From assembly GCA_013178165.1 (NCBI GenBank), contig JABLXG010000008.1, forward strand, positions 62,001 through 126,000: a stretch of DNA of 64,000 bases. Reading direction: 5' to 3'. This DNA comes from Anaerolineae bacterium (GTDB lineage Bacteria > Chloroflexota > Anaerolineae > Aggregatilineales > Ch27). The translations under genes and the position numbers were made by a program. Under the pieces are notes generated by a model. The model worked only from the letters and a program-made list of their open reading frames with translations. It was not told where the DNA came from and made no database searches. Positions 17,214 through 26,000 of the stretch are shown in pieces; the first letter of the stretch is position 1, and each line of letters begins with the position of its first letter.

Positions 17214-17594
17214 TCACCGGCGGGCGCGCGCCGCCTGGCGGACCTGTTCCAGGTTGACGATTTCGGCAACCTCATACTCGGTTACCAGGGCGTTCGGCAC
17301 GGGCCGCAGGCGCACAATGGCCGGAAAGTGACCCATGCGCCCGTGCAATTCCGCTAGCAGGATCGCCGCGATATAGTTAAGCGAGGGCAGGATAAGCATC
17401 CATGGCTCGCCCTGCCAGCGCTCCGGAGCGATATTGAGATCGTCCAGGAGCCTGATAACCTGGGCGACGAAGGACTCTTCGAGATCGAACTGGACACGCG
17501 CCTCGATGATGGCGCTGGCCGGTTGCCCGACCAGCGCCTCGATTTGTTCGATCTGTCGCGCCGTTAGAGGGTGTGAGAGGTTGAGGAGGTTCAT
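17214..17594 (-). CDS. csx15: CRISPR-associated protein Csx15
   Basis: 126-residue accessory protein of type III CRISPR systems, recognised from MNLLNLSHPLTARQIEQIEA, LPSLNYIAAILLAELHGRMG and the AEIVNLEQVRQAARAR C-terminus, which match my recollection of the Csx15 family. Csx15 is encoded next to CARF proteins, and its proposed role is in cyclic-oligoadenylate binding or turnover; I do not assert an activity for this one. The gene starts 3 bp after the CARF-RelE stop codon, so it is co-translated and is the last gene before a terminator. Length is normal for the family. Confidence 0.85.
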   Translation of the reverse strand: MNLLNLSHPLTARQIEQIEALVGQPASAIIEARVQFDLEESFVAQVIRLLDDLNIAPERWQGEPWMLILPSLNYIAAILLAELHGRMGHFPAIVRLRPVPNALVTEYEVAEIVNLEQVRQAARARR

Positions 17595-17597
17595 GGG

Positions 17598-18782
17598 TTA
17601 GCTTAGATCACCTTCCCAGATCATTACAGGGCCGTAGTCTGCACGACGCAATCCCCTCGATGCTAAACGTTCGTAGGAGTCATCACTGTGACGTGCAATT
17701 TCGGCAATAAGGATGGAGCCGTCATCTTCCTCAAAGTAGAAGATACGCTCATCGCTGGCTGGTTTTGCGATCTTCACCTTGCCGCCGAGCGTTGCATGTT
17801 CCTGCAAGCTACGCCACTCCGGATCACGCATGCGGTTGAGAAGTTTCCGCCATATATCTCTTTGAGTGCTATCAAGAGCGCGAATAGCATCCTGGGCTTG
17901 TTTCGACAGATAGAGCTTGGATTTTTGTTTGTCACGAAAATGCTCGATAACGATGTGCCCTAGACCACTGGGTTCGTAGTAGGTCTCGCCGTTGTCATCA
18001 ATAAAGTCAAAGAGTGACCACAGCGGATGAGTCGCAACGGGTTGGTCTTCGTTGCCCAGTGCTTTTCGGAGCTCAGCTTCGGTGAGGGGTGTCTCGGGAT
18101 TGCTACACTTCACGAGCGCCTCATATGCTGCTTCCATCTGTTCGAAATCAAGGCGGAGGGGCACAGGAGCAAGCCGGATCATTTCAGACGAGGACTCATA
18201 GATATAGCTGAGTTCTACATTCTCAAGCATCCCGATAAGTGTAAGATACGGCACGACGCCTTTGAAGCCACCGGTGGGGTTGATGATCCGTTGATAGGTT
18301 CCCGCGGGTGCTCTACGAAGAATGCTGAAGACTTTGCTAATCAGGTTATTGAGACCCTTACGGCGGAACCTGTCACCATTTTCAACCTGCAAACCTTCAA
18401 TAATCTCGACTTGCGTTTCTCGTTGAAAGTATTCCTTGCAAAAATCAGCCAGGATGCGAGCAGCTAACACGCCGTCGGGAGTTTCAGAAGCAAGGAAGTG
18501 GAGACAATCGTTTCGATTCGGTGGCTGATCCTGGAGTGTGGGGACAAGGTGATTTAGCTCCGCACTGGCCCTTCTGAGCAAAGCTACGTCATTCGCTTTG
18601 GCGCGGAGGCTGGCCATCACAATGCTGTACCACTGCTCACCCGGGAAATTGAGCTTATTACCGGCAATTGCCTTCAGGTCAACATCCCGTTGCCGCCCAA
18701 ACTCTCGCAAGAAGTCGCGGGCCTGCGTATCCGAGTTGGTGATAACGGTTTGACCAACTGTTGAAATGATGCAGTAAGGCAT
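17598..18782 (-). CDS. CARF-RelE ribonuclease (Cami1-like CRISPR effector)
   Basis: 394 residues. N-terminal CARF domain (about 1-190) with the ligand-loop motif NPTGGFKG near residue 168 and the start MPYCIISTVGQTVITNS, which is typical of APE2256-type CARF proteins. A middle helical region follows. The C-terminal 90 residues resemble RelE-fold mRNA interferases (RDIWRKLLNRMRDPEWRSLQ, then RIFYFEEDDGSILIAEIARH). CARF-RelE proteins (Cami1) are known to cut mRNA at the ribosome when the CARF domain binds cyclic oligoadenylate made by Cas10. By inference this is a type III effector. Middle gene of the operon CARF-HTH > CARF-RelE > csx15; 33 bp separate it from the CARF-HTH gene. Catalytic residues of the RelE part are not assigned. 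Confidence 0.82.
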   Translation of the reverse strand: MPYCIISTVGQTVITNSDTQARDFLREFGRQRDVDLKAIAGNKLNFPGEQWYSIVMASLRAKANDVALLRRASAELNHLVPTLQDQPPNRNDCLHFLASETPDGVLAARILADFCKEYFQRETQVEIIEGLQVENGDRFRRKGLNNLISKVFSILRRAPAGTYQRIINPTGGFKGVVPYLTLIGMLENVELSYIYESSSEMIRLAPVPLRLDFEQMEAAYEALVKCSNPETPLTEAELRKALGNEDQPVATHPLWSLFDFIDDNGETYYEPSGLGHIVIEHFRDKQKSKLYLSKQAQDAIRALDSTQRDIWRKLLNRMRDPEWRSLQEHATLGGKVKIAKPASDERIFYFEEDDGSILIAEIARHSDDSYERLASRGLRRADYGPVMIWEGDLS

Positions 18783-19651: not shown

Positions 19652-19710
19652 GGCGAAGTGTTTCCAGCATAGCACAGGCTGCTGGCGGGCGCATGAGTAG
19701 TTGTACTCAT
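19652..19710 (-). promoter_or_regulatory. CARF-HTH regulon promoter module, copy 1
   Basis: Plus-strand order: GGCGAAGTGTTTCC (19652-19665), AGCATA (19666-19671, TATGCT as a minus-strand -10), exactly 21 bp, then the palindrome ATGAGTAGTTGTACTCAT (19693-19710, 7-bp arms around GTTG). The palindrome lies where an activator overlapping the -35 would bind; no good TTGACA is present. Two further copies with identical spacing are at 20507-20565 and 22976-23034. Drives the CARF-HTH > CARF-RelE > csx15 operon. Confidence 0.75.
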
Positions 19711-19759
19711 CTGGCCAATCATGATCGTCATGATTCATGTCGTCGAGGATTTCTCGCAA

Positions 19760-19885
19760 TCAGCAGATGTCCCAGGGTACCCATGCCTGGCGCGGATCGC
19801 CCCGATTGTCATCCCAGATGAAGCGCTTCCAGATCGGCCAGATTTTATTGCCCGGCCAGACGCTGAAGATGATGGTGCCCAGCAT
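19760..19885 (-). CDS. Small Trp-rich ORF (41 aa), unknown function
   Basis: 41 codons: MLGTIIFSVWPGNKIWPIWK, then a polar Trp-containing tail ending PWDIC. ATG preceded by AAGGG 5 bp upstream. Composition (six Trp, one short hydrophobic stretch) is protein-like rather than random, and the same frame is open further upstream, so it may be the tail of a decayed membrane protein. It lies between zinc-ribbon gene 1 and the CARF-HTH promoter, reading the same way. No family recognised. Confidence 0.35.
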   Translation of the reverse strand: MLGTIIFSVWPGNKIWPIWKRFIWDDNRGDPRQAWVPWDIC

Positions 19886-19930
19886 CAGCACCCTTATACC
19901 GATGCGAAACCCCGAAGTATGTTTTTCAGG

Positions 19931-19958
19931 GTGGGGGGGCGGTTGCTGCCCCCCCCAC
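19931..19958. repeat. GC-only hairpin downstream of zinc-ribbon gene 1
   Basis: GTGGGGGGGC / GCCCCCCCCAC with a 7-nt loop. No T-run on the minus strand, so it is not a standard terminator; it may block transcription or be a decay product of homopolymer tracts common in this island. The rest of 19711-20039 holds the small ORF and the end of the 321-bp repeat. Confidence 0.4.
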
Positions 19959-19976
19959 ACACCTGTTGGAGCCAGC

Positions 19977-20297
19977 GGCAGGGTCTGGAGCCTTACCCCG
20001 GAGCGATGGTTTGCCAACCGACCCTGACGACAGCCATCCCTACCCCTTGGAAATATCCCTGCCGCAGTGCTTACAGACCTTCGCTTCCGCCTTAACCAGT
20101 TCCGCGCAGTAGGGGCAATGTCTTGTTTGACCGACGACAACCCCGCGTCTTTCCAGTTCCTCCTCATTCCTGCCCGAGATCAGGGCGATCAGCAGGCCGA
20201 TGGGGCCGAGCAGGACGCCGAGCAGACAACCCGTCGCAAAAGGGTTGCCCTTGCTCTGGTTGATGTAGCCGGCAATCAGCCCGAACAGCAGCCAGAC
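19977..20297. repeat. 321-bp direct repeat, copy 1
   Basis: Near-identical to 22318-22638 (constant offset 2341 bp). It contains most of zinc-ribbon gene 1 plus about 60 bp after its stop codon. Differences are scattered single bases. Shows a recent segmental duplication within the CRISPR island. Confidence 0.85.
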
Positions 20298-20330
20298 GAC
20301 TATTGCTCCCCCGTCGATGCCTGATTCCAT
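20040..20330 (-). CDS. Small membrane protein with C-terminal zinc ribbon, copy 1
   Basis: 96 residues. Two predicted membrane segments (AIVVWLLFGLIAGYI near 9-23 and GCLLGVLLGPIGLLIALISG near 34-53) followed by a cytoplasmic zinc ribbon CPYCAELVKAEAKVCKHCG (CxxC...CxxC, residues 72-90). The ATG follows GGAGGCAAGT. A paralogue at 22381-22671 is nearly identical from residue 15 on. Both have a copy of the 59-bp promoter module upstream (here at 20507-20565, leaving a leader of about 180 nt). Similar short proteins occur widely in bacteria with no set function; a link to CRISPR signalling is my inference from promoter sharing. The frame stays open for 38 codons after the TAG. Confidence 0.8.
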   Translation of the reverse strand: MESGIDGGAIVVWLLFGLIAGYINQSKGNPFATGCLLGVLLGPIGLLIALISGRNEEELERRGVVVGQTRHCPYCAELVKAEAKVCKHCGRDISKG

Positions 20331-20506
20331 ACTTGCCTCCTTCAGTGGCAGTTCCGTTACAGTGCAGCCATGACCGATGCGCGGGCCGACTGAAAGAAGC
20401 GTTCATGCTGAACCTGTCCCTTCCTTCACTCCAGCCACGATTCTGTCATGGACTGGTGCCCCGACGAGTAAGCGCAGGCTCCACCGGCGCTCCTCGCCTT
20501 GCTGTG

Positions 20507-20565
20507 GGCAAAGTAGCCTCAGCATACCAGGAACGACCCGTGCATTCATGAGTGGGCGTACTCAT
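20507..20565 (-). promoter_or_regulatory. CARF-HTH regulon promoter module, copy 2
   Basis: GGCAAAGTAGCCTC (20507-20520), AGCATA (20521-20526; TATGCT on the minus strand), 21 bp, palindrome ATGAGTGGGCGTACTCAT (20548-20565, 6-bp arms). Same geometry as copies 1 and 3. Reads toward zinc-ribbon gene 1. Outside this module, 20331-20687 holds no gene I can support. Confidence 0.72.
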
Positions 20566-20687
20566 AATGTGCCGGATCGTTGTGGCGATCAGTGGCGGAG
20601 GTCGTCCTGGCAGGGTACATGGAAGGGGTGGGGGCAAGGTATGTTGCAGAAGGACGCACGTCTTATAACGCCTGTCCTTGTGCAGTG

Positions 20688-21026
20688 TCAAATTTTCCTG
20701 CTTCCCTTGTGATTCTTTATCCATCCCCGGAGCCAGAAGAGATACCTTATGAAGCTCACGTCAATGGCAATGATCCACAGGTAGATGACATCGATGATGA
20801 GCGCGCGAGAGAAATCCCGCGTCTCAGGGTAGAAAAACGTCAATATGAACGCTATCGCACAGACCGGAGTGACGAAAGTGAGGAACGTGGCATTGGCATA
20901 ATCAATAACCGCCCCAAACCGGCTTTCGCCTTCTTCGCTGATAAGGCCCCTCACCAGAAGTCTGAGCCACCCGTCACCGCTGTTAGACCACTCCAGAAGC
21001 CGCTCCCTCACAATATTCTTCTCCAT
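20688..21026 (-). CDS. Small membrane protein, unknown function
   Basis: 112 residues, start ATG chosen because AAAGGAGGGAATACC precedes it. Soluble N-terminus (MEKNIVRERLLEWSNSGDGW), then hydrophobic spans at ATFLTFVTPVCAIAFILTFF and ALIIDVIYLWIIAIDVSFIR, and a basic tail KNHKGSRKI. The upstream glycosyltransferase remnant is in the same frame with no stop between, so a longer fused product is possible. No family recognised. Confidence 0.6.
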   Translation of the reverse strand: MEKNIVRERLLEWSNSGDGWLRLLVRGLISEEGESRFGAVIDYANATFLTFVTPVCAIAFILTFFYPETRDFSRALIIDVIYLWIIAIDVSFIRYLFWLRGWIKNHKGSRKI

Positions 21027-21368
21027 GGTATTCCCTCCTTTCGCGTAGTCAGCCAGAAATCCCTCGTAAGCCCGCGCCCAGGATTTCCACTGCGCTTCCA
21101 GCGAATAATGCTCTCTGGCCACCTTTTCGGCTACCGCCCCGTAAAAACGCAACCGTTTGCGCTTGCGAACCAGGTCTTCCAGCGCCCTGATCCACTCCTC
21201 CGGATCGTCCTTGACGAAGATGAGTGGCAGATCGCTCAGGTAATCCGGCAGGAAACCGGAAACTTCAAAGCGAACGTAAGGATATTTCTCGGCCAGATAG
21301 TGCAGGGCGGGAGAAACTATCCGCCAGTCCCTTTCGTGTGTTGACGAGCCGCTGATACCGATGGTCAC
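21027..21368 (-). pseudogene. Glycosyltransferase (GT4-type) remnant with internal deletion
   Basis: Begins MTIGISGSSTHERDWRIVSP, the typical start of the second Rossmann domain of GT4-like glycosyltransferases, and ends with their C-terminal helix (HYSLEAQWKSWARAYEGFLA). The donor-binding middle is missing: VSGFLPDYLSDLPLIFV runs straight into KDDPEEWIRALEDLVRKRKR. The 5' end is cut exactly at the edge of the decayed repeat block at 21371. It continues in frame into the membrane protein downstream. Confidence 0.6.
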
Positions 21369-21370
21369 CC

Positions 21371-21604
21371 TCTTTCCAGTTCCTCCTCATTCCTGCCCGA
21401 GATCAGGGCGATCAGCAGGCCGATGGACAATCAGCCCGAACAGCAGCCAGATAATGATGGTTGGTTCGCAGACCGGCTGAGCCGCGCGCCAGTCGCCGCT
21501 CGATGCCCCGGGCTGGGTCCGCGTCACGGCGATGATCCGGGGCTTCACCAGGCGGGGGGGGGGCGACATCAGTGCCCCGAAGGGCAATTGAAGGACCGCA
21601 CGTC
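21371..21604. repeat. Decayed copy of zinc-ribbon/array-trailer segment
   Basis: A collapsed version of 22490-23088. It keeps the region around TCCTCATTCCTGCCCGAGAT, then jumps to TCAGCCCGAACAGCAGCCAG, then to the block around CCGGCTGAGCCGCGCGCCAG, then to a run of ten G and one CRISPR repeat. At least three internal deletions relative to the intact copy. Confidence 0.7.
21566..21604 (-). repeat. Orphan degenerate CRISPR repeat
   Basis: ACATCAGTGCCCCGAAGGGC continues as AATTGAAGGACCGCACGTC: one extra base and one change near the 3' end. Its ACATCAG start is identical to the degenerate terminal repeat at 23051, and both follow a run of G and a CGAC. It therefore descends from an array's trailing end. 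Confidence 0.8.
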
Positions 21605-21636
21605 GTAGCATTGCTCCTTCCTGGTTATGATGGCGG

Positions 21637-22041
21637 TTAGAGGGGCGGCAGAAGGTTATCATCATCGCCGTCGCCAAAGAAACCGTGTTCTGTCAGTTCG
21701 TTCAGCAGGTATTCGGTGTAAACGTGCTTCAGATAGCCGTTGTCAGTGCTGCTGTACCGGCGCTGATCGTCGCTACTGTCGCTGAAGTTGGGGCGGTGGT
21801 ATTCAAAGGGCTTGGGGGTAGGGCGCGGCTCTGGATTGTAATACCATCCCGGCAGTTCTTCCGGCGAGGGGCTGTCCGATGAAGGTTTCTGCGAACGGTA
21901 GTAGCGGTATTCCAGCCAGTCGCGGATGTGTTTGCCCAGACCCGTATACCTGTAGACAACCCAACCCAAGAAGGCAAAAAAGGCCAGGAAGAGGGGCAGA
22001 TCGACGCAGTAAAGCTCAAGGTTGCGTATATCGGTTATCAT
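21637..22041 (-). CDS. Hypothetical membrane-anchored protein
   Basis: 134 residues with a strong ribosome binding site (GGAGGTGAACG before ATG). One N-terminal membrane span (LPLFLAFFAFLGWVVYRY, residues 15-32), then a Pro/Ser-rich linker (SSDSPSPEELPGWYYNPEPR) and an acidic Tyr-rich C-terminus ending GDGDDDNLLPPL. No family recognised. Follows the terminator at 22083 and reads leftward into the decayed repeat. Type II-like orientation is uncertain. Confidence 0.65.
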   Translation of the reverse strand: MITDIRNLELYCVDLPLFLAFFAFLGWVVYRYTGLGKHIRDWLEYRYYRSQKPSSDSPSPEELPGWYYNPEPRPTPKPFEYHRPNFSDSSDDQRRYSSTDNGYLKHVYTEYLLNELTEHGFFGDGDDDNLLPPL

Positions 22042-22082
22042 CGTTCACCTCCGTGTAGTCTGTCAGAACCGTTCTGAAAAAT

Positions 22083-22123
22083 GGGGCAGGGGGGCGGAAA
22101 TCTCTGTCATCCCTGCCCCTTTT
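22083..22123. terminator. Bidirectional intrinsic terminator
   Basis: GGGGCAGGG (22083-22091) pairs with CCCTGCCCC (22111-22119). TTTT follows on the plus strand, and TTTTT follows on the minus strand (AAAAA before 22081). On the minus strand it comes right after the read-through tail of zinc-ribbon gene 2. Confidence 0.75.
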
Positions 22124-22134
22124 AGGGAGCCTGT

Positions 22135-22380
22135 TTAGAACAGGCTCAGTTGCACCGGCACTCCCGTCCACAGCGGTTCCGGCTTCCGGGCGAAAACGGG
22201 TTCCGGTTCTTCGGCAAAGACGGGTTCTGGTTCGGGTACAACATCCTCGGTGGCCCGGTCTTCCTCGCCATCCCGGTCGGGCAGGTCGGCGTCCCGGGTG
22301 TCCTCGGTTTCGGCTCCGGCAGGGTCTGGACCCTTACCCCGGAGCGATAGTTTGCCAGCCGACCCTGACGACAGCCATCC
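22135..22380 (-). pseudogene. In-frame acidic tail after the zinc-ribbon TAG stop
   Basis: Directly after the TAG of zinc-ribbon gene 2, the same frame stays open for 81 codons. The second half is clearly protein-like: EEDRATEDVVPEPEPVFAEE, then PEPVFARKPEPLWTGVPVQL and SLF, then TAA. There is no ATG, GTG or TTG that could start it usefully. It may be the tail of an ancestral longer protein, the fossil of another gene fused by recombination, or a product of stop-codon read-through. A terminator follows 12 bp later. Confidence 0.45.
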
Positions 22381-22638
22381 CTACCCCTTGGAAATATCCT
22401 TGCCGCAGTGCTTACAGACCTTTGCTTCCGCCTTAACCAGTTCCGCGCAGTAGGGGCAATGTCTTGTTTGGCCGACGACAACCCCGCGTCTTTCCAGTTC
22501 CTCCTCATTCCTGCCCGAGATCAGGGCGATCAGCAGGCCGATGGGGCCGAGCAGGACGCCGAGCAGACAACCCATCGCAAAAGGGTTGCCCTTGTTGTGG
22601 TTGATGTAGCCGGCAATCAGCCCGAACAGCAACCAGAT
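22318..22638. repeat. 321-bp direct repeat, copy 2
   Basis: Matches 19977-20297 at a constant offset of 2341 bp, with few substitutions. Homology extends past the zinc-ribbon stop codon but ends before the start codons, so the first 10-15 residues and the leaders differ. Confidence 0.85.
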
Positions 22639-22671
22639 GATGATGGTAAGAGGATTAAAAACTGAATCCAT
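22381..22671 (-). CDS. Small membrane protein with C-terminal zinc ribbon, copy 2
   Basis: 96 residues, paralogue of the gene at 20040. N-terminus MDSVFNPLTIIIWLLFGLIA differs from copy 1 and then identity is almost complete; differences are conservative (QSKGNPFATG versus HNKGNPFAMG, CGRDISKG versus CGKDISKG). Two membrane segments plus CPYC...CKHC zinc ribbon. ATG at 22671 preceded by GGAAGGTGATAAAC. A longer in-frame extension exists upstream but lacks protein character. The promoter module copy 3 lies 305 bp upstream, and leftward transcription of the CRISPR array would also reach it. Confidence 0.8.
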   Translation of the reverse strand: MDSVFNPLTIIIWLLFGLIAGYINHNKGNPFAMGCLLGVLLGPIGLLIALISGRNEEELERRGVVVGQTRHCPYCAELVKAEAKVCKHCGKDISKG

Positions 22672-22837
22672 GTTTATCACCTTCCGTCGACCGTGCAATT
22701 TTTGACTGGTTCGCCGACCGGCTGAGCCGCGCGCCAGTCGCCGCTCAATGCCCCGGGCTGGGGCCGCGTCACGGCGATGATCCGGGGCTTCACCAGGCGG
22801 GGGTGAACGCCAGGAAAGGGTGGAGGCGCCTGTGTGA

Positions 22838-22987
22838 TCAGGAGTGCCGTTCGAGGTAGGTATCCCACACTGCCCGCCAAACACTGTAAACGAACACCGG
22901 AATAGCGATACCGCCGCCGATAGCCGCCCCAAGATGCAGGTGCGGGAACAGGATGATCGCAATCGCTGCGGCAGCGGAGAAGTACCC
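22838..22987 (-). pseudogene. C-terminal fragment of a small membrane protein
   Basis: In one minus-strand frame, 49 codons read as a glycine/alanine-rich membrane segment (SAAAAIAIILFPHLHLGAAI, then GGGIAIPVFVYSVWRAVWDT and YLERHS) ending in TGA. No start codon; the frame is closed just upstream by TGA inside the -10 of promoter copy 3. It looks like the 3' end of a gene whose 5' part was replaced. The rest of 22672-22975 holds nothing else I recognise. Confidence 0.4.
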
Positions 22988-23034
22988 TCAGCTTAGCACT
23001 GGCTTTGGGGAGAGGCATGAGTAGGTGTACTCAA
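22976..23034 (-). promoter_or_regulatory. CARF-HTH regulon promoter module, copy 3
   Basis: GGAGAAGTACCCTC (22976-22989), AGCTTA (22990-22995; TAAGCT on the minus strand), 21 bp, palindrome ATGAGTAGGTGTACTCAA (23017-23034; last base breaks the arm). Points away from the array toward zinc-ribbon gene 2, and lies 16 bp from the terminal CRISPR repeat. Confidence 0.7.
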
Positions 23035-23050
23035 TTCCGGGGGGGGGACG

Positions 23051-26000
23051 ACATCAGTGCCCCGAAGGGCAATTGAAGGACGTACGTCCCGCTGCGCCGA
23101 GCGGCGGGAAACGCACTCACCCCTTCAGTTTCAGTGCCCCGAAGGGCAATTGAAGGACGTACGTCTATCTAGCCGACCAGATAGTCAAAGAGATAATGGG
23201 CTAGTTTCAGTGCCCCGAAGGGCAATTGAAGGACGTACGTCCGCGCAGAGTTTGAGGAAGTTGAACATTTGGCAAGGTTTCAGTGCCCCGAAGGGCAATT
23301 GAAGGACGTACGTCGCAGGAGAGAAAGAAATGTCTGTCAGCTTTCTGCTGTGGTTTCAGTGCCCCGAAGGGCAATTGAAGGACGTACGTCATGGAGATCA
23401 TGCCGTATCGTTCAACGTCTCTGGAGTTTCAGTGCCCCGAAGGGCAATTGAAGGACGTACGTCTTTTGGGTCAGGCTCGGCGCGGTCGGACTGGCGGCTG
23501 GGTTTCAGTGCCCCGAAGGGCAATTGAAGGACGTACGTCTCACCATCTCAGGTAGCTCGCTGGTGAGCGCCACCGGGTTTCAGTGCCCCGAAGGGCAATT
23601 GAAGGACGTACGTCCTGCCATCTTTCACCCCCCTGCCTTACAGCTACAGCGGTTTCAGTGCCCCGAAGGGCAATTGAAGGACGTACGTCAATGTCAAGCA
23701 ACAGCTGGCTGATGTAGTGTTTCAGGCGTTTCAGTGCCCCGAAGGGCAATTGAAGGACGTACGTCCGGTATCTACGATCAGGCCGGTTTTGTGGCGGCGG
23801 TGTTTCAGTGCCCCGAAGGGCAATTGAAGGACGTACGTCCACCAGCGCGGGGCGGACTGGTGAAATACCTGAAAAGTTTCAGTGCCCCGAAGGGCAATTG
23901 AAGGACGTACGTCGTGGCGGCACTGGGCGGGAGCGCAGTTGCCGTAGGGTTTCAGTGCCCCGAAGGGCAATTGAAGGACGTACGTCAACGGCAGGGCGAG
24001 GAGCTGGCTACGGTGTTTCTGAGGTTTCAGTGCCCCGAAGGGCAATTGAAGGACGTACGTCACGAGCTACGGCAAGATGCTGATGGCGCTCTATGGGGGT
24101 TTCAGTGCCCCGAAGGGCAATTGAAGGACGTACGTCGGGCTGATCAGCCGCCTGGCTAAAGAGGGTTGGGACAGTTTCAGTGCCCCGAAGGGCAATTGAA
24201 GGACGTACGTCTCAATGGTCTGAGTACGGGGCATCCGGAACAATTTGAGTTTCAGTGCCCCGAAGGGCAATTGAAGGACGTACGTCATAAGCGAATCTAC
24301 AGCCATTGTACTGCTCCTTCGGGTTTCAGTGCCCCGAAGGGCAATTGAAGGACGTACGTCCTGAGTAACTCGGTCGCCAGTGTACCGCGCAGATCGTGGT
24401 TTCAGTGCCCCGAAGGGCAATTGAAGGACGTACGTCGGGGGTACGACAAGTCTTTGCAGGCGCTATTGGCCGTTTCAGTGCCCCGAAGGGCAATTGAAGG
24501 ACGTACGTCCGCTCCCGCCCGAACGATACGCGCTCCTGTGGCCAGTTTCAGTGCCCCGAAGGGCAATTGAAGGACGTACGTCTCTGGGCTTGGAGTATCA
24601 GGTTATTCCCGGCCCCCGGTTTCAGTGCCCCGAAGGGCAATTGAAGGACGTACGTCCGCATCATCATCGTACTGTGCACCATGATGTTCCTGTTTCAGTG
24701 CCCCGAAGGGCAATTGAAGGACGTACGTCAAGAACCGGGCTGAGGCTGAAAGCGCCCTGCAGCGGTTTCAGTGCCCCGAAGGGCAATTGAAGGACGTACG
24801 TCTCTTATGTCCGGTAGAACTAGAGGGTGGCAGTTGACCTAGTTTCAGTGCCCCGAAGGGCAATTGAAGGACGTACGTCTAGCCACACATCGCGCCGCTC
24901 TCCCGGCCAGTTCGAGTTTCAGTGCCCCGAAGGGCAATTGAAGGACGTACGTCGGCTGTATTATCCGGGCGACCGGAATGCTAATAAGGTTTCAGTGCCC
25001 CGAAGGGCAATTGAAGGACGTACGTCTGTAGTGATGAATTAGGAAACTGGGAATTTGCAAGTAGTTTCAGTGCCCCGAAGGGCAATTGAAGGACGTACGT
25101 CCAAAAAAGCGACCGCGTCTTGGCGCGGCCTCGAAAATAGTTTCAGTGCCCCGAAGGGCAATTGAAGGACGTACGTCCTGGCCGGTCTGCGCAGGGCAGA
25201 AGCCGCCGCCCTGGTTTCAGTGCCCCGAAGGGCAATTGAAGGACGTACGTCTCAGGCCGAGATCTTCGCCGGGGAGTGGTGGGTTTCAGGTTTCAGTGCC
25301 CCGAAGGGCAATTGAAGGACGTACGTCCCGCCCTTTACGGCCAGGAAGCCCTGGACGCGCTCACGTTTCAGTGCCCCGAAGGGCAATTGAAGGACGTACG
25401 TCCTTCACGATCGATAGCCACCAGCCGGATGCAAAGGCGTTTCAGTGCCCCGAAGGGCAATTGAAGGACGTACGTCGTGCATTTTATTATCCTTGTCATC
25501 CTTTTCCCCTTCAGTTTCAGTGCCCCGAAGGGCAATTGAAGGACGTACGTCTCGGAGTGCTTCCAGCACTCCAGCCTTGATTTCGTGACGTTTCAGTGCC
25601 CCGAAGGGCAATTGAAGGACGTACGTCTCTGAAAAGGGGACGTCGTTCTCAGCGGAGATGTGGAGTTTCAGTGCCCCGAAGGGCAATTGAAGGACGTACG
25701 TCAGTGCTGAGCGCAATGCCCGGACAAAACTTGTGCCGGTTTCAGTGCCCCGAAGGGCAATTGAAGGACGTACGTCTGCTCTCGGAGCGACCAGTAACGT
25801 GCCCTGTTGTGCCGTTTCAGTGCCCCGAAGGGCAATTGAAGGACGTACGTCCATGCTCACCGCATAGCACCAGGCACCAGTCGCCCGGGTTTCAGTGCCC
25901 CGAAGGGCAATTGAAGGACGTACGTCAGCGGGAAGTGTCGCCCATCGTCTGTAATCAGGTAGGTTTCAGTGCCCCGAAGGGCAATTGAAGGACGTACGTC
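23051..26000 (-). CRISPR. CRISPR array, 40 repeats of 38 bp, 39 spacers
   Basis: Plus-strand repeat: GTTTCAGTGCCCCGAAGGGC followed by AATTGAAGGACGTACGTC. Spacers are 35-39 bp and all differ. I counted 40 repeats at 72-77 bp spacing; all look identical except the first (23051-23088), which starts ACATCAG. Read on the minus strand, the repeat ends CACTGAAAC, the usual 8-nt crRNA handle of type III and some type I systems, and contains the stem GCCC-TTCG-GGGC. The altered repeat is then at the trailing end, so the array is transcribed leftward with the leader at 26001. No cas adaptation or interference genes are in the window. Nearby CARF proteins suggest type III. Confidence 0.97.

Follow-up and report, generated by a model that had tools for sequence, protein, structure and literature searches.

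Palindromic promoter modules beside a CARF-LuxR gene of Chloroflexota: candidate operators of a cyclic oligoadenylate-responsive regulator

Background

In a 64,000-nucleotide stretch of DNA from an Anaerolineae bacterium (hereafter, the window), the same promoter-like module occurs three times, once in front of an operon for a CARF domain regulator and twice upstream of zinc-ribbon genes close to a CRISPR array. What is this module, and which protein reads it? Little is known of how transcription responds to CRISPR second messengers; the literature found offers the archaeal regulator Csa3 and the CalpL sigma-factor route. Transcriptional regulators have been named in general terms among the effectors of cyclic oligoadenylate, or cOA (PMC12669027), and PMC11229360 leaves regulators to future study. 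The present analysis yields a bacterial regulator family, predicted operators in several lineages, predicted transcription starts, and, for the whole genome, a list of four target promoters; the genes behind such boxes provide a route to finding new antiviral genes.

Results and discussion

Promoter geometry of the three window modules

A preliminary description of this DNA reported three 59-bp modules, and these are indeed in place, complete with palindromes, the 21-bp gap and the -10 hexamers (Table 1). Read on the minus strand, each module consists of the palindrome, exactly 21 bp, one of the hexamers TATGCT, TATGCT and TAAGCT, respectively, and then G-N5-ACTT. All three hexamers are TG-extended, with TGN directly upstream, and a consensus scan detects no -35 element in these promoters, as had been noticed before. 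With the A of ACTT taken as +1, the hexamer spans -12 to -7, and the palindrome is centred at -42.5 from this predicted start, which is the position of a class II activator. The window modules have the features of class II promoters, namely a -10, no -35, and a palindrome overlapping the -35 position.

In the window alone, three palindromes with at most two mismatches are found versus 1.37 expected, which is a weak statistic. The spacers, previously thought to be otherwise unrelated, turn out to be identical at 13 of 21 bases in copies 1 and 3 (shuffle P about 0.002), so that these two copies are probably related by descent; the spacer of copy 2 is dissimilar to both. Two other readings of the palindromes were rejected: no Rfam family is found at the modules, and none of the terminator-like sites found coincides with a palindrome.

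Table 1. Features of the locus and of the fourth module (window positions unless a contig or locus is named)
Feature	Coordinates	Strand	Details
csx15	17214..17594	-	NF040560, E 5.4e-45
CARF-RelE (Cami1-like) effector	17598..18782	-	PADLOC CARF_RelE, E 1.3e-49
CARF-LuxR regulator, 271 aa	18816..19631	-	PF09623, E 1.7e-23; PADLOC CARF3
-10 of module 1, TATGCT, TG extension	19666..19671	-	predicted start 19659; 28-nt leader to CARF-LuxR gene
Box 1, palindrome ATGAGTACAACTACTCAT	19693..19710	-	0 mismatches to ATGAGT-N6-ACTCAT
Zinc-ribbon gene 1	20040..20330	-	PF13248; 184-nt leader from predicted start 20514
-10 of module 2, TATGCT	20521..20526	-	predicted start 20514
Box 2, palindrome ATGAGTACGCCCACTCAT	20548..20565	-	0 mismatches to ATGAGT-N6-ACTCAT
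Zinc-ribbon gene 2	22381..22671	-	PF13248; 312-nt leader from predicted start 22983
-10 of module 3, TAAGCT	22990..22995	-	predicted start 22983
Box 3, palindrome TTGAGTACACCTACTCAT	23017..23034	-	1 mismatch to ATGAGT-N6-ACTCAT
Fourth module: TTGAGTACAACCACTCAG, 21 bp, TAAACT	G000:C16:9623-9667 (= L201:1624-1668)		
Three-gene stretch behind fourth module (orf195, Band-7-like, 1887-aa ORF)	L201:1731-9348		

The regulator and its operon

Module 1 precedes an operon in which the gene of the CARF-LuxR regulator is followed by that of a CARF-RelE (Cami1-like) effector and then by csx15. The GGRK motif of the CARF domain is conserved. A profile built from 26 relatives matches ring-nuclease CARFs with its N-terminus, and structures of LuxR/NarL proteins (VpsT, VraR, NarL, and DevR; best E 2.5e-5) with its C-terminus; Csa3 is matched too. 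GerE is matched in 8 of the 26 family members, the window protein on its own not being among the matches, and the assignment of its HTH to the LuxR/GerE type is made by family profile. With an AlphaFold model of the regulator (pLDDT 89.8), the best Foldseek matches are among cA4-binding CARF proteins (Cad1 and Sso2081), with Csa3 lower down; judging by this model, the N-terminus has a CARF fold close to those of cA4-binding CARFs. The score with TIGR01884 (Csa3) is 15.0 bits, below the curated cut-off of 60.2. That cA4 is the acting cOA species is a guess by analogy, made from these CARF neighbours and from the presence of Csx15 and Cami1 (PMC13148439, PMC11229360).

A fourth module elsewhere in the genome

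We searched the 4.185-Mb genome with a pattern for the full module (an 18-bp palindrome, then 21 bp exactly and TANNNT; up to two mismatches allowed). It matched at four places only, each time perfectly: at the three modules of the window and at one more on another contig, which the preliminary description, with its three-copy module, had missed. Controls gave no hits, and the four perfect modules are far above chance. Beyond the window copies, the whole genome contains no palindrome match with at most one mismatch. The full pattern was also run on seven other genomes, of which only that of the sister species (G001) has a match; it stands before the CARF-LuxR gene.

The fourth module faces orf195 (194 codons), which has a good ribosome-binding site. 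Behind orf195 come a gene with weak similarity to Band-7 (PF01145 E 0.012, under the cut-off) and an 1887-aa ORF carrying an aminotransferase domain; together they may form a new cOA-regulated operon. The same contig, C16, opens within csm3, with csm4 and csm5 next, and a type III-A system is therefore at least partly present in the genome. A search of this assembly for Cas10 gave no PF22335 match, as would be expected if cas10 should lie beyond the edge of the contig at which csm3-csm4-csm5 are located.

Conservation of the box in orthologous operons

If the boxes serve the CARF-LuxR protein, they should accompany its gene elsewhere. CARF-LuxR genes with their own leader have the box in front of them in G001 (88% identity, 21 bp), G020 (70%, 20 bp), G442 (69%, 20 bp), and on contig C4 of G023 (44%, 21 bp); two more such genes, L021 and L049, have no box of the window type. 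In operons of the order csx15-effector-CARF-LuxR, the box stands before csx15 (G026, G041, and G010), as it also does, with 21 bp and TATAAT, at a site not used in training, L065 from a Chloroheliaceae MAG, where the gene order is csx15, a Csx1/Csm6-type effector, CARF-LuxR, and cas10. The search for the motif upstream of orthologous operons, suggested at the outset, is thus positive in five own-leader orthologues, the window one included, and in four operons that begin with csx15. Where an orthologue immediately follows another gene, there is no box at the orthologue itself, and no convincing box was seen near several operon-internal orthologues in type III operons (e.g., G042 and G018). The promoters of G020, G442, and G023 are without TG extension.

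In G001 and G023, which have the box and the CARF-LuxR gene, no Cas10 and no RAMP genes were detected; either these assemblies are incomplete or the regulator stands alone. Weak box-like sequences are seen 21 bp before TATAAT in G020 and G442 (L197:8360 and L198:6901, both on the minus strand), probably ahead of cas10; with scores of 18 and 16, and a control maximum of about 16, they are suggestive only. Matches to GAGTACNNNTACTCA in other relatives were discarded as being at background level.

The wider CARF-LuxR family

Around 81 CARF-LuxR loci, we scanned without bias for 18-bp palindromes of any sequence that have a -10 downstream of them; spacing 21 stood out as a sharp peak. After dereplication, this spacing is seen in 14 of 61 loci (a count that includes the ambiguous L021, in G023 between convergent genes, and L101, with the site 255 bp upstream); other spacings average 0.68, and dinucleotide shuffles average 0.31 and never exceed 1. 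Most of a secondary peak at spacing 32 is due to divergent boxes that overlap. The promoter geometry proposed for the window recurs beside more distant CARF-LuxR genes, but the palindromes there differ: they vary by clade (TTAGGGGAAAACCCGCAT, ATACGGGTTTTCCCGCAT, ATCCGAGGTAGTTCGGAT, ATGCGACTCGAGTCGAAT, ATCAGCAGTGGTGATGAT, and others), and clades named by their box include the ATGAGTAC and GGGGAAAACCC clades.

In the wider family, the box is usually found immediately downstream of the CARF-LuxR gene. It is followed by cas10 in L074-L076, L149, L152, L154, L155, and L158, and probably in L157 and L159, a link that the preliminary description had missed; in L150 it is followed by cas6. Distances between boxes correlate with those between the proteins (Mantel r 0.61, 0 of 2000 permutations; L049 and L101 left out of the box list). 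Partial r is 0.23 for the HTH and 0.26 for the CARF domain, i.e., the two have about equal explanatory power, and the correlation is therefore read as co-inheritance, inseparable from shared ancestry, and not as proof of contact.

In five loci from Chloroflexia (L103, L115, L120, L121, and L124), boxes that are paired or that overlap, with a -10 on each strand, are seen just after the CARF-LuxR gene, and the leftward box of each pair would be antisense to the 3' end of that gene.

Zinc-ribbon genes at the array end

A CRISPR array adjoins box 3 (window 23040-26000); the orientation of its repeats (GCACTGAAAC 3' end, minus strand) aims transcription at box 3 and the zinc-ribbon genes. There are two copies of the zinc-ribbon cassette, 97% identical over 300 bp (window 19976-23081), and a third that is truncated; a stray CRISPR repeat lies beside a poly-G tract at about 21553-21603. 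Together, these features suggest that the array end has been rearranged repeatedly. Control of both zinc-ribbon genes, as proposed earlier, has in its favour boxes 2 and 3 upstream of them, and against it their long leaders and the situation in the sister species, where a single zinc-ribbon gene, between the array and the CARF-LuxR operon, has no box. That the two window genes belong to the regulon is plausible, but as a lineage-specific feature. We rejected as a target a small frame in front of zinc-ribbon gene 2, as it has no start codon in the window; its relative in G001 has an ATG and, read by eye, looks frameshifted.

What the modules probably do

We consider it likely that each module is an operator-promoter of the neighbouring CARF-LuxR protein, working by class II activation under cOA control. 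What is observed is the site, its geometry, its conservation, its co-occurrence with the CARF-LuxR gene, and the domain make-up of the protein; the locally encoded CARF-HTH protein, the candidate named in the preliminary description, gains support from the boxes before orthologous operons and from the recurring geometry. Binding, start sites, activation, and cOA control are predictions from sequence. A CARF-LuxR dimer would bind the 18-bp palindrome about 42.5 bp upstream of the transcription start, replace the missing -35 contact, and recruit RNA polymerase to the -10. On detection of phage RNA, type III-A Cas10 would make cOA, to be sensed by the CARF domain, and infection would raise the regulator itself, the effector Cami1, and the brake Csx15 together, along with the distant three-gene operon and, probably, the two zinc-ribbon membrane proteins. 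In other genomes the Cas10 complex would be raised, giving an infection-driven amplification.

The same protein might instead bind the boxes as a repressor that blocks RNA polymerase at the extended -10 and is released by cOA. The TG-extended -10s of the window promoters might function without a -35, a dimer at -51 to -34 could block polymerase too, autoregulation is common, and binding by Csa3 was reported to be cA4-independent (PMC8844856). We nevertheless regard repression as unlikely, because the window promoters are without a -35, the TG extension is absent in G020, G442, and G023, and the fixed 21-bp spacing fits a need for polymerase contact, whereas a repressor site would allow more variation.

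It is quite improbable that the boxes belong to another transcription factor that controls defence genes, and stand beside the CARF-LuxR gene on that account. The genome has four sites only, three of them within 3.4 kb of the regulator gene, and in many families the geometry is found again next to the CARF-LuxR gene, with a palindrome that varies along with the protein; this holds even though the link of the boxes to the CARF-LuxR protein is a putative binding, and though box and regulator occur in G001 and G023 with no type III genes detected. Passive duplication debris at the array end, with no regulatory role, would agree with the duplicated and truncated cassettes, the stray repeat, and the spacer bases common to copies 1 and 3, but is hardly credible: although the zinc-ribbon copies are 97% identical, all that their boxes retain is palindrome, spacing, and -10, another contig carries a fourth module, and the sites are conserved in other genera.

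Beyond the activator reading for this locus, we tentatively propose, as a possibility somewhat short of probable, that Chloroflexota possess a family of one-component CARF-LuxR activators, with 18-bp operators particular to each lineage, through which type III immunity is amplified upon infection, the targets being cas10 operons in several lineages and, here, effectors together with genes that have no recorded CRISPR link. If this is true, the zinc-ribbon membrane proteins, orf195, the weakly Band-7-like gene, and the 1887-aa protein would be new cOA-induced antiviral genes.

Comparison with known systems

In the LuxR/NarL family, a palindromic site is found near -42. The regulator described here resembles LuxR/NarL activators (VpsT, VraR, DevR, and NarL) in its HTH, of GerE type by family profile, and in the predicted position of the window site at -42.5, and differs from them in having a CARF domain as the sensor in place of a receiver or acyl-homoserine-lactone domain.

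CARF-HTH regulators are already known, e.g., Csa3, an archaeal CARF-winged-HTH regulator (PMC8844856, PMC8699464). As in Csa3, which binds cA4, a CARF sensor is fused to a DNA-binding domain and linked to CRISPR; Csa3, however, carries a winged HTH and belongs with type I-A systems, while the HTH here is of LuxR type by family profile and the -10 geometry is bacterial. Our search covered the open-access literature and found no described CARF-LuxR operator there; within that literature we judge such an operator to be new.

By profile, the CARF-RelE gene and csx15 of the operon match the Cami1 and Csx15 families, and the parts of the respective papers available to us (PMC11229360, PMC13148439) describe no transcriptional control of either. 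The CalpL-CalpT-CalpS system (PMC11229360) likewise turns cA4 into a bacterial transcription response; it does so by proteolysis of an anti-sigma factor, whereas a one-component CARF regulator would take that role here.
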